The position numbers and the translations under genes were made by a program. The notes beneath the pieces were generated by a model that saw only the letters and a list, made by a program, of their open reading frames with translations, did not search any database and had not been told where the DNA came from. Positions 17,172-20,457 of a stretch of 20,757 nt of DNA are shown piece by piece. The stretch is from a virus: positions 1-20,757 of IMG/VR virus record IMGVR_UViG_3300030388_001337; one strand, written 5' to 3'. Numbering within the stretch: the first letter of the stretch is position 1; each line of letters begins with the position of its first letter.

Positions 17172-17200
17172 AGATCATGGTAACAACAAGCATAAGCAGT

Positions 17201-17252
17201 GGCAAGTACAGGTGGCAAGTACAGGTGGCAAGTACAGGTGGCAAGTACAGGT
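17201..17252. repeat. Four perfect 13-bp direct repeats (iteron-like)
   Basis: The unit ggcaagtacaggt occurs four times head-to-tail without a mismatch. The unit length is not a multiple of three, so the array is unlikely to be protein-coding. Confidence 0.95.
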
Positions 17253-17313
17253 GGAGGTGAAGACTATGGAAAATACTTACAAGGCAAAGTTAAAGTGATT
17301 TCGAGGCAAAAGG

Positions 17314-17616: not shown

Positions 17617-18261
17617 GTGAGTGAGAAGAAGAACCAAAACATGTTGTTAGAACCTGAGCAATTCGCAAAGCGAGGTCTGTCCAGGCGAAAGAGATTGTCG
17701 CCGAAGCAGGAGAAGTTCGTGCAGTTGTTTGTCTATCACGACCTCACCAAAAAGGAATGCGCCATACGAGCCGGGTATAAATCCCCAAGCGTGAGCGCAT
17801 CAACCATGCTACATGGTGTGCAGTTCAGACATGTGCAGGACAGAATCGCAGAGCTCACAGAATCTAAACAACTCAAGTATGGGATTACTTTTGATAAGGT
17901 ATCAAGAGATCTGCAGATGATCAGGGATGCAGCCCTGGAGGATGGCGCGTATGGCCCGGCTGTGCAGGCTGAGATGGGAAGGGCCAAGCTTGCGGGCTTG
18001 ATGGTTGATAAGAAGGAGATCAAGACAGGGACCATCGATCAGATGGATCGAGGCGAAGTCGAGGCAAGGCTAAGGAACCTGATCGAAAAGCATGAGCTGG
18101 TGAGGACAGAAACAATCGAAATCCAGGCGGAGGAAATCGAAGAGGATGGCGAGGTAGAGGAGGCAGAGTACGAGGACATCGAGGATGAGGGTTGGGAGGA
18201 GGAGGAGGATGAGGTAGAGGATGGAGATGAGGGCATTACGCCCTCCACACCTCCGGCCTGA
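17617..18261 (+). CDS. terS: Terminase small subunit (214 aa)
   Basis: Recognises the packaging site and hands DNA to the large subunit. The N-terminal region (residues 27-75) has the family pattern LSPKQEKFVQLFV...KKECAIRAGYKSPSVSASTML...VQDRIAEL, a helix-turn-helix. Residues 88-125 (FDKVSRDLQMIRDAALEDGAYGPAVQAEMGRAKLAGL) fit the oligomerisation helices. An unusually long acidic tail follows (about 167-206, mostly Glu/Asp), perhaps contacting the large subunit or mimicking DNA; it ends in ITPSTPPA. The start is GTG at 17617, supported by GGGAG seven bases upstream. No large subunit gene follows: the next genes run the other way, so it must be elsewhere. The repeats just upstream could be its binding site. 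Confidence 0.85.
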   Translation: MSEKKNQNMLLEPEQFAKRGLSRRKRLSPKQEKFVQLFVYHDLTKKECAIRAGYKSPSVSASTMLHGVQFRHVQDRIAELTESKQLKYGITFDKVSRDLQMIRDAALEDGAYGPAVQAEMGRAKLAGLMVDKKEIKTGTIDQMDRGEVEARLRNLIEKHELVRTETIEIQAEEIEEDGEVEEAEYEDIEDEGWEEEEDEVEDGDEGITPSTPPA

Positions 18262-18499
18262 ATGTATGACGCTTGCGCATTCTCTTGGTCACTCTTTTCT
18301 TGCTGTCTATGGCTTGCTTTAGATAGAACATGTTGATCCGATGATGAGCAGAACAATACCGATCACCTTTCTCTTTGTTGCCCGTGCTAGTGAAGGAGTC
18401 ATTGCACCATGTGCATATGTGATCCAATGGCTTGCGTGATTGGTGCAAGGTGGCTGAGTTCCACCTCAATCCACCCCGTGTTTCTTTTTTATCTTTCAT
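18236..18499 (-). CDS. Small zinc-finger-like basic protein (87 aa)
   Basis: The product has a CxxC...CxxHH cluster (C29, C32, C49, H52, H53), the rest being very basic (KKRVTKRMRKRHTFRPEVWRA at the end). This suits a small zinc finger that binds nucleic acid; the spacing also recalls the zinc part of some HNH nucleases, but no catalytic His-Asn-His is visible. The ATG has GGAG eight bases upstream and overlaps the end of the methyltransferase gene by 11 bases, so they are co-translated. The 3' end overlaps the convergent terminase small subunit gene by 26 bases. Confidence 0.72.
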   Translation of the reverse strand: MKDKKETRGGLRWNSATLHQSRKPLDHICTWCNDSFTSTGNKEKGDRYCSAHHRINMFYLKQAIDSKKRVTKRMRKRHTFRPEVWRA

Positions 18500-19268
18500 T
18501 TAAAGTTCTCCATGCTTTTGCTGCAGTCTGCGGGACTACTCCGTTTCCCAACATCCTAATTCGGTCAACCCTGTCGGCACACCCATCAACCACTCGACCC
18601 ACGTTGGGTTCAATTGACCAGGACATTCCGTTCTGCCACCCGCGTTGTTCACCACCACGGTCAACAGGCTTTCCTGAGATCCCTTCTTGGTCGGATCTGA
18701 TCGATCTTGATATCCCAACCTCGGTTCGTGCGCCGATGGTGTCGGCCAAGATGTAGACTCGCTTGCGTTGGTGAGGTGCGCCGACTTCAGACGCGCTGAA
18801 TATTGACCACGTTGTGCTGTAACCATCTTCTTCCAGATCACTGAGGACTGAGGAGAGTCCAAGCGAGATGTGTCCTTCGACGTTTTCAAAGAAGCATTGA
18901 GTAGGTCTAATTGCGTTGATATGTTCTCTGATGTAGGGCCAGAGATGGCGGGGATCTTCTTTACCCTTGCGCCTTCCCGCTGCACTGAACGGCTGGCACG
19001 GATAGCCTCCAGTGATGAGGTCAACGCAGCCTCGAAAGAGATGTGCTGGGAAGGTTTTAAGATCCGTGTAAATAGGTGCGGCATCCAACTCACCCGATTC
19101 CATCTTGTTTGCCAAGTTCGCAATGGCGAAGGCTTCGATCTCCACATAAGCGAGGACTCGATGGTCGGTGCCAGCAAGGTCAAGTCCTCTTTCGATGCCA
19201 CCGTATCCGCTACAAAAGCTGATGACGTTGAGGGGTCTGTTAGTTGATAGTTCTTTGGAAGTATCCAC
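18489..19268 (-). CDS. C5 cytosine-specific DNA methyltransferase (259 aa)
   Basis: Transfers a methyl group from S-adenosylmethionine to C5 of cytosine in DNA. Motif I is FCSGYGGIERGL (18-29). Motif IV is GGYPCQPFS with catalytic C91. Motif VI is ENV (128-130), motif VIII QRKR (167-170), and motif X RMLGNGVVPQTAAKAW near the end. The target-recognition region between VIII and X is short, so the whole protein is smaller than the usual 300-400 aa but has every core motif. The start is GTG at 19268, as no in-frame ATG lies before motif I. It is intertwined with a second frame whose ATG lies two bases upstream. No partner restriction enzyme is visible, so protection of phage DNA or gene control is more likely than a restriction system (inference). 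Confidence 0.93.
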   Translation of the reverse strand: MDTSKELSTNRPLNVISFCSGYGGIERGLDLAGTDHRVLAYVEIEAFAIANLANKMESGELDAAPIYTDLKTFPAHLFRGCVDLITGGYPCQPFSAAGRRKGKEDPRHLWPYIREHINAIRPTQCFFENVEGHISLGLSSVLSDLEEDGYSTTWSIFSASEVGAPHQRKRVYILADTIGARTEVGISRSIRSDQEGISGKPVDRGGEQRGWQNGMSWSIEPNVGRVVDGCADRVDRIRMLGNGVVPQTAAKAWRTLNER

Positions 19269-19270
19269 AT
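18536..19270 (-). CDS. Possible overlapping gene inside the methyltransferase gene (244 aa, alternate frame)
   Basis: A 244-codon open frame lies on the same strand, almost entirely within the methyltransferase gene. Its ATG (19270) is two bases before the methyltransferase GTG (ATGTG), so one AAAGGAA ribosome site could serve both, with better spacing and start codon for this frame. Its C-terminal part contains SWPTPSAHEPRLGYQD and then LNPTWVEWLMGVPTG. That W-P-T-P ... L-N-P-x-W-V-E-W-L-M-G-x-P arrangement is, to my memory, recurrent in phage proteins found with cytosine methyltransferases. The same bases encode methyltransferase motif X in the other frame. The remainder is Ser/Thr/Arg-rich, as expected of a shadow frame, so this may instead be an old frame relationship rather than a made protein. 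Confidence 0.4.
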   Translation of the reverse strand: MWILPKNYQLTDPSTSSAFVADTVASKEDLTLLAPTIESSLMWRSKPSPLRTWQTRWNRVSWMPHLFTRILKPSQHISFEAALTSSLEAIRASRSVQREGARVKKIPAISGPTSENISTQLDLLNASLKTSKDTSRLDSPQSSVIWKKMVTAQRGQYSARLKSAHLTNASESTSWPTPSAHEPRLGYQDRSDPTKKGSQESLLTVVVNNAGGRTECPGQLNPTWVEWLMGVPTGLTELGCWETE

Positions 19271-19294
19271 TGTGATTCCTTTTTTAAGATTAGA

Positions 19295-19939
19295 TTAGGC
19301 TATGGTCAGCCATAGTTTTAGTTGAGTAGTCTCATCAAGCTCATTCATTAAGATGTAATCAAAATGTTTTCCTATACCCTTGAGGACTTTCTTTGTGTTG
19401 GCTAAATGAATGTCAGTGGGTCGCTTGTTAGTGCTGTAAAGAAACCCACCGTTATCGTTAGCCTCAGTGTCGATGATGTGTATCCGATTGCGTATCGCCT
19501 TAGACATATCCTTCATGGTGAGTTGCTCATTGACCAACGCGCCCACAAGGATGTCGAGGTAAGAGAAGTAAACTTCTTCCTGTCCATATATCGTCTGCTC
19601 TTTCAATCGTATCTCTTCGTAGTCATACCAGCGTTCTGACTGACAGTATCGCTTCGCAATGTCGATTAGCTTGAGGTAAAGATTCTGTGAGGATTCCTTA
19701 TCCGCAATGGATACTCTCTTCTTAGACCGATGGTAGTAGTTGTCGCCACCCTTGCCATCATTCTCTACACGTAGAATCTTTACGCCATCTACACATATCT
19801 GCGCACTGAAATCATGCGTGTCATTTGAACTGCTCTTGTTGTGAATCAGTGAGCGTATCTCTATGCCTGCAGCTTGCTCAGATGCGAGGCGCGTGTTGTG
19901 GATTGAATCTTTGATCCATCTCTTATGTGTACTCATCAT
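19295..19939 (-). CDS. Unknown protein, paralogue of the upstream neighbour (214 aa)
   Basis: Function unknown. The N-terminal half has IEIRSLIHNKSSSND, then QICVDGVKILRVENDGKGGDNYY; the later part has YLDILVGALVNEQLTMKDMSKAI and NKRPTDIHLANTKKVLKGI. All three blocks are also present, in the same order, in the gene directly upstream, so the pair arose by duplication. There is no metal cluster, membrane helix or signal peptide. The ATG overlaps the upstream stop (ATGA), with GGGGAG just before it, and the methyltransferase gene follows after a short gap, so all belong to one minus-strand operon. Confidence 0.75.
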   Translation of the reverse strand: MMSTHKRWIKDSIHNTRLASEQAAGIEIRSLIHNKSSSNDTHDFSAQICVDGVKILRVENDGKGGDNYYHRSKKRVSIADKESSQNLYLKLIDIAKRYCQSERWYDYEEIRLKEQTIYGQEEVYFSYLDILVGALVNEQLTMKDMSKAIRNRIHIIDTEANDNGGFLYSTNKRPTDIHLANTKKVLKGIGKHFDYILMNELDETTQLKLWLTIA

Positions 19940-20457
19940 GCTTGCTCCCCGCTGTAGATTTCCAACGCCTCATCAAATGCAAGGCTGTTGAGAACAATAC
20001 AATCGGGATTTTCATCCTTAACCATATCAATCAGATTCTTATCTACTGGCCGCTTGTTTCCATAGGTAGTTTGATAAATTCCGTTTTCATTGACGAAAAG
20101 TACTTTGTTCTTGAGTGATTTCTTTAACTCTTTAGAGGTCAGCTTCTTATTAATGATGTCCCCGATTAAGATTTCAATATCAACGTCCATGTTGTCTTCA
20201 ATTGCAAACTTACTACGCCATTTTGGGAGGGTAGCGCAATGGGCTTCAATCTTTGCCATCACCACATCAAACTCTGACCTTGCCTCCTTCGGGTCTTTTC
20301 TTTTCGAGTGCAGTGGCTCATAAAAATCAGCGCCACCACGCCCATCATTCGATGCATAGAAGGCGCGTTTGCCATCTACATATACCGTTGCTTCATAACA
20401 ATGCGTTTCGTGTGATGCGAATTCTGCATGCTTAAAGCTCTTGAGTTCTATCTTCAT
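19936..20457 (-). CDS. Unknown protein with VDGK...NDGxGG motif (173 aa)
   Basis: First gene of the minus-strand methyltransferase operon. The product begins MKIELKSFKHAEFASHETHCYEA and then TVYVDGKRAFYASNDGRGGADFY, a beta-rich pattern (E-T-x-x-x-x-A-x-V-Y-V-D-G-K-x-x-x-x-x-x-N-D-G-x-G-G) that I recall from short uncharacterised bacterial and phage proteins. A helical region follows (DIEILIGDIINKKLTSKELKKSLKNKV), then GNKRPVDKNLIDMV. The ATG has GGGAG seven bases upstream. It is paralogous to the next gene. Possibly a DNA-mimic or nucleotide-binding accessory, but nothing in the sequence proves this. Confidence 0.77.
   Translation of the reverse strand: MKIELKSFKHAEFASHETHCYEATVYVDGKRAFYASNDGRGGADFYEPLHSKRKDPKEARSEFDVVMAKIEAHCATLPKWRSKFAIEDNMDVDIEILIGDIINKKLTSKELKKSLKNKVLFVNENGIYQTTYGNKRPVDKNLIDMVKDENPDCIVLNSLAFDEALEIYSGEQA

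Follow-up and report, generated by a model that had tools for sequence, protein, structure and literature searches.

Multispecific cytosine-C5 DNA methyltransferases are encoded by the Bacillus phages SPR, phi3T and rho11, in which arrays of short target-recognition domains (TRDs) are carried on one catalytic scaffold; titles on such enzymes are cited in PMC12707154 and PMC4081073. A different arrangement is found in M.EcoHK31I, whose large-subunit gene also contains, in another frame, the coding sequence of the small polypeptide. For this enzyme (YGGCCR; Lee, Kam and Shaw 1995), PMC3404938 places motifs I-VIII and X in the large subunit and motif IX in the small subunit, and assigns the TRD to the large subunit. 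M.AquI is a C5-methyltransferase of two polypeptides, with motifs I-VIII in one chain and TRD, IX and X in the other (PMC3404938). Dual starts have been characterized in E. coli, where AUGUG or GUGUG behind a Shine-Dalgarno (SD) sequence at distances of 12 and 14 allows both frames to be translated, in vivo as well as in vitro, and where longer SD spacing at AUGUG favours the first start (PMC9841429). Two-chain C5-methyltransferases such as M.EcoHK31I and M.AquI and AUGUG dual starts are each already known, separately.

The window analyzed here is a whole viral record of 20,757 bases (IMG/VR record IMGVR_UViG_3300030388_001337), in which a methyltransferase gene lies near phage genes for a small terminase (17617-18261), a Cas4-domain exonuclease, a helicase, a Sak4-like annealing protein and a primase/helicase. 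This locus very probably encodes a two-subunit cytosine-C5 DNA methyltransferase in overlapping frames, here termed alpha (frame 0) and beta (frame +1), with beta as the specificity half (Table 1). Under this proposal, alpha would supply the AdoMet-binding catalytic domain with motifs I-VIII together with motif X, and beta the target-recognition module and motif IX. Ribosomes guided by one SD sequence would produce beta when they begin at AUG and alpha when they begin at the GUG that lies two bases further on, so that the choice of start codon would set the ratio of the halves from one message. We infer that both chains are translated and assemble into a single enzyme, which probably methylates phage DNA and thereby evades host restriction, and whose specificity would be determined by the WxTP module or modules of beta.

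Table 1. Features of the two-frame methyltransferase locus in the window
Feature	Coordinates	Strand	Remarks
alpha, predicted C5-methyltransferase catalytic subunit	18489..19268	(-)	GTG start, 259 aa; motifs I-VIII and X
beta, proposed specificity subunit	18536..19270	(-)	ATG start, 244 aa; open and constrained in relatives
ATGTG start common to both frames	19266..19270	(-)	ATG 19268-19270, beta; GTG 19266-19268, alpha
Shine-Dalgarno AAGGA	19277..19281	(-)	distance 12 to ATG, 14 to GTG
alpha motifs I-VIII, large catalytic domain	18744..19229	(-)	PF00145 and PDB matches; HhaI-like fold in virtual-fusion model
alpha motif IV PCQP, catalytic Cys	18990..19001	(-)	invariant in alignment A1
alpha motif X LGNGVVPQ	18528..18551	(-)	G241/N242 invariant (alignment)
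beta putative TRD module WPTPSAHEPRLGYQDRSDPTKKGSQESLLTVVVNNAGGRTECPGQ	18614..18748	(-)	module type recurs in L011, L018, L022, L041, L043, L047, L167
beta motif IX LNPTWVEWLMGVPTGLT	18563..18613	(-)	conserved; IX-X profile of frame-joined relatives finds plant DRM C5-methyltransferases
beta N-terminal extension MWILPKN...	18749..19270	(-)	overlaps alpha motifs I-VIII; constrained (alpha 4-fold differences 0.15-0.34)

A first-pass annotation had described a 244-codon ATG frame that shares its start site with the GTG frame of the methyltransferase, and this layout was recovered: the two frames, of 244 and 259 codons, open at a common ATGTG behind one AAGGA, with beta in the +1 frame relative to alpha and starting 2 nt before it. 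The same annotation held that LNPTWVEWLMGVPTG and motif X (RMLGNGVVPQ) are encoded by the same bases, which calls for a small correction, as the former occupies 18569-18613 and the latter 18528-18557, with no overlap. The main-frame counterpart of the LNPTWVEWLMGVPTG bases is EPNVGRVVDGCADRV, motif X is overlapped only by the beta tail LGCWETE, and the bases for motif IX lie just upstream of those for motif X. Elsewhere in the window, eight tandem copies of a 12-base unit, GTGAAACTCCTA, at 5-103 encode a PSET repeat in a frame running off the contig start, and a 13-base unit, GTGGCAAGTACAG, is repeated 4.3 times with 100% matches at 17199-17254, apparently in an intergenic region. The two adjoining genes upstream of the methyltransferase (19295-19939 and 19936-20457) look related to each other (VDGVKILRVENDGKGGDNYY / VDGKRAFYASNDGRGGADFY), and the latter matches phrog_17767, a family of unknown function.

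The Pfam and PDB matches of alpha were confined to the large domain. Residues 14-175 match PF00145 (E=5e-32), covering only positions 2-160 of the 324-position profile, and PDB matches to M.HhaI and M.HaeIII extend only over residues ~13-179, with no match from the PDB sequence search beyond residue ~187. PCQP and the GN of motif X are invariant in alignment A1, as are the E and V of ENV, and downstream of the large domain motif X is the sole recognizable motif. A TRD and a canonical motif IX were not found in the alpha chain past the points at which the Pfam and PDB matches stop, and at 259 aa there is little room for both. Alpha also matches phrog_363, labelled DNA methyltransferase (1e-60).

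The C-terminal part of beta consists of a module, WPTPSAHEPRLGYQ... (WPTPSAHE...), followed by motif IX, LNPTWVEWLMGVPTGLT. Within the latter, LNPTWVEWLMGVP displays the canonical C5 motif IX spacing, L-x-P-x5-L-x-G-x-P, and P222, E226, M229, G230, P232 and T236 are invariant among the 68 betas of alignment A4. A profile of the IX-X region, built from five loci in which LNPxWVEWLMG and motif X occur in one frame, was searched against all PDB chains; its top matches were plant DRM cytosine methyltransferases (E=0.001), with an alignment to LEPDEVEMLLGFPKNHT...SLGNS. Beta alone had no profile match among PDB chains and no Pfam family above the cut-off; phrog_1008, labelled DNA methyltransferase, matches the window beta (3e-15) and, weakly, alpha motif X.

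Most betas carry one to six modules that begin with WxTP, and four have variants such as WPTA or WPTL. Identical module types reappear across loci in differing combinations; the window beta has a single WxTP module, SAHEPRLGYQDRSDPTKKG, which is found again in other loci. By analogy with the multispecific phage methyltransferases, these modules are likely swappable TRD cassettes. Structure prediction for beta alone was uninformative (AlphaFold, pLDDT 56). For a virtual +1 fusion, in which alpha through residue 176 was joined to beta from residue 178, AlphaFold produced a good, HhaI-like large domain and a low-confidence TRD, and Foldseek matches of this model to bacterial C5-methyltransferases cover approximately the large domain only.

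An open +1 frame might be a by-product of the codon and amino-acid usage of alpha, with no beta product. For the window sequence alone, codon shuffles that keep the methyltransferase protein left the +1 frame free of stops in 101/20,000 trials (0.5%), a chance that is not negligible across many genes. Among relatives with >44% identity, a set that includes loci found through beta, the +1 frame is fully open in 63 of 68, compared to 0.02 expected from alpha-preserving codon shuffles, while stops in the +2 frame are as frequent as expected, without depletion. In 59 distinct viral loci collected with alpha alone, and therefore unselected for beta, stops are absent from the +1 frame between the alpha start and the end of motif IX in every case (54 by script, plus five with motif IX slightly further upstream, three of which were read by eye and two of which are locally identical to one of these three), and the +2 frame is open in none (0/59). 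Given also the synonymous constraint and beta-phase substitutions detailed below, the recognizable motif IX and the modularity of the TRDs, we regard a mere by-product as having practically no probability. Rather than being frequently interrupted by stops, the alternate frame is kept open in homologues.

The second protein is also widespread. A tblastn search with beta produced matches in 72 phage records, mostly under genes annotated as DNA methyltransferase or hypothetical, and in the nine of these records that were translated, beta lies in the +1 frame of the methyltransferase. Two viral scans yielded 160 loci (80 by beta and 80 by alpha), nearly all of which have LNPxWVEWLMG in the +1 frame of alpha; the usual distance from there to the GN of motif X, which lies downstream, is 65 nt. 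In bacterial genomes, a scan recovered 300 relatives from many phyla, 80 of which were kept, and motif IX is in the +1 frame in 74 of these 80. Proteins matching the WPTP/LNPxWVEWLMG part do therefore exist elsewhere, and the overlapping two-frame layout is, as judged from these sequences, conserved across many phages and prophages. In Paenibacillus phage Bloom, both frames carry a methyltransferase annotation. In Escherichia phage vB_EcoS_SCS92 (L010:1107-1898, 1195-1857), the beta frame alone is annotated, as a methyltransferase, and the frame with the catalytic motifs, alpha, carries no annotation.

Both frames show the marks of selection. Across 38 non-overlapping sequence pairs, which are not fully independent phylogenetically but allow the contrast to be drawn within the same pairs, the level of difference at 4-fold degenerate alpha sites is 0.498 past the beta stop, in the motif X part, compared to 0.149 at the start, 0.196 in motifs I-III, 0.168 in the region that follows, 0.342 in IV-VI, 0.192 in VII-VIII, 0.139 in the TRD and 0.051 in motif IX. 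Synonymous variation in the methyltransferase frame is thus strongly reduced under beta. Conservation of beta exceeds that of alpha at the start (0.84 vs 0.75), in the TRD (0.50 vs 0.41) and in motif IX (0.82 vs 0.70), whereas alpha is better conserved than beta in motifs I-VIII. Among 29 pairs, differences are most frequent at beta third positions, which are alpha first positions, in three regions (start, TRD and IX), whereas the motif X region has its peak at alpha third positions. Taken with the open frame in homologues and a recurring start, this constraint strongly supports the suggestion of the first-pass annotation that the locus is truly double coding from a common start site.

The shared start recurs across the relatives. 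Among 81 distinct DTGTGG sites, 74 are ATGTGG, six GTGTGG and one TTGTGG; as these were selected for TGTGG at the beta start, the counts reflect recurrence and the spread of the first base rather than an unbiased frequency. Within the clade of the window, most loci have the shared start, beta begins MW[IVL][LIV]PK, and SD spacing peaks at 12-13, compared to 12/14 in the window. One relative (L152:2540-2590) has ATGTAG at the shared start, which places a stop right after the beta start codon, and its beta frame is open downstream; its beta start was possibly lost or relocated. In distant relatives, beta opens only inside alpha, and 18 of 35 have a candidate start behind an SD match of 5 nt or more that is embedded in the alpha codons, a count that takes the best of several candidate starts per locus and includes chance matches; one example of an embedded SD is AAAGGAGTTAGCTAATG (L046). 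These SD-preceded internal starts imply that separate initiation of beta is likely general, and that the co-start is particular to the window clade.

The data on initiation also bear on whether the beta sequence might instead be reached by +1 ribosomal frameshifting from alpha, resulting in a fusion of motifs I-VIII with the TRD and motif IX. The order of motifs along the DNA, VIII-TRD-IX-X, is that of a monomeric enzyme, and a single shift would join the parts, as in the virtual fusion described above. However, beta has its own conserved start, conserved N-terminus and third-position variation, the constraint reaches motifs I-III, contrary to what a shift after motif VIII would lead one to expect, beta starts inside alpha behind an embedded SD in several distant relatives, and the fusion product would be without motif X. 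Frameshifting is therefore very improbable as the source of the beta sequence, and we favor independent initiation of a separate beta chain.

The point at which the enzyme is divided between the two frames varies among relatives. In two viral loci (L037 and L056), alpha ends after motif VIII and beta comprises the TRD, IX and X, while in three Streptomyces loci (L214, L241 and L243), IX and X are in alpha, the TRD modules are in the +1 frame, and beta ends just before IX. Motifs IX and X thus appear, from their placement, to be interchangeable between the chains, which is expected for halves of one enzyme and not for an unrelated accessory protein. Since the frame that holds IX, or both IX and X, differs among relatives, alpha and beta look like complementary halves of one enzyme.

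It could alternatively be argued that beta has an accessory role of its own, such as regulation or anti-restriction, and has only its DNA in common with alpha. Beta is conserved and, in the window clade, spans all of alpha up to motif X, yet the parts missing from alpha are exactly those present in beta, motifs IX and X switch frames in relatives, and the motif IX of beta matches that of C5-methyltransferases. We consider this explanation very improbable as well. The first-pass annotation had suggested an accessory protein, but the second protein fits the specificity half (TRD and IX) of a split C5-methyltransferase better. It had also raised the possibility of two families related by an ancient frameshift, an origin that is needless because the pair of motifs would belong to one enzyme, with IX read in the +1 frame and X in frame 0.

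Two further loci depart from these arrangements. In Paenibacillus macquariensis (L223:1163-2250), one frame holds the catalytic motifs together with IX, a second the TRD modules and the remaining one motif X, as if the gene had been broken by an indel. Another locus (L167:839-2200) has an insertion between motif IX of beta and motif X of alpha through which alpha stays open, and an HNH-like zinc pattern, CESCGS...CAHHTDRDWTNN...CSSCHTSEHH, is seen when the insertion is read in +1. This insertion recalls the alternate-frame HNH of mycobacteriophage methylases, an insertion that has been studied previously (PMC11855218); in the sections of that study considered here, the beta frame is not mentioned. 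The possibility that the HNH of the ShiLan methylase insertion lies in the beta frame was rejected, as PMC11855218 places it in the third frame.

On balance, we think it reasonably probable that +1-frame specificity subunits composed of TRD cassettes and motif IX constitute a large, mostly unrecognized class in phages and prophages, of which the window lineage would be a nearly co-extensive form, co-initiated at AUGUG, with the ratio of subunits fixed by start-codon competition. No description of alternate-frame specificity subunits or cassette arrays in phages was found in the literature covered, which was that in PMC with few subscription papers. Should this proposal hold, many genes now annotated as one short DNA methylase would be incompletely annotated two-subunit enzymes, and failed expression or specificity assignment of phage C5-methylases could be explained. 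For AUGUG dual initiation, for which the evidence to date comes mainly from reporters, it would also provide a case that is conserved in evolution and has a legible function, and it would mean that recognition modules are exchanged under the need to keep both frames open. The existing labels of phrog_1008 and phrog_363 do not separate the frames into two different subunits.

Of the known systems, M.EcoHK31I is the nearest precedent, as one chain contains I-VIII and X and the other IX, as in alpha and beta, and at the window locus the putative second subunit is similarly encoded in another frame inside the catalytic gene. Likened by description, the two differ in the TRD, which is assigned to the large subunit in M.EcoHK31I but would belong to beta at the window locus, where alpha is less conserved than beta in the TRD region; because of this difference in TRD assignment, we do not classify the locus as an M.EcoHK31I orthologue, although it would work in a similar way. 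Among plasmids that carry alpha and a beta, which were screened for M.EcoHK31I or close homologues, nothing was identifiable as EcoHK31I. Compared to M.EcoHK31I, the window beta covers almost the full length of alpha, from a start 2 nt ahead of it, and the system is phage-borne and very widespread. The arrangement of M.AquI is similar to that of L037 and L056, whereas in the window motif X stays with alpha and the genes overlap in two frames. With the enzymes of SPR, phi3T and rho11 the likeness would lie in phage-borne TRD arrays; betas have up to six WxTP modules, of types shared between loci, and the window has one. Those enzymes, however, are single-chain, whereas the putative array here is in the alternate frame. 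Finally, the locus resembles the AUGUG/GUGUG sites of E. coli (Kohl et al. 2022, PMC9841429) in having one SD for both frames at a spacing of 12/14, but while that work concerned reporters and native E. coli sites, the present locus adds evolutionary conservation and two recognizable predicted proteins.
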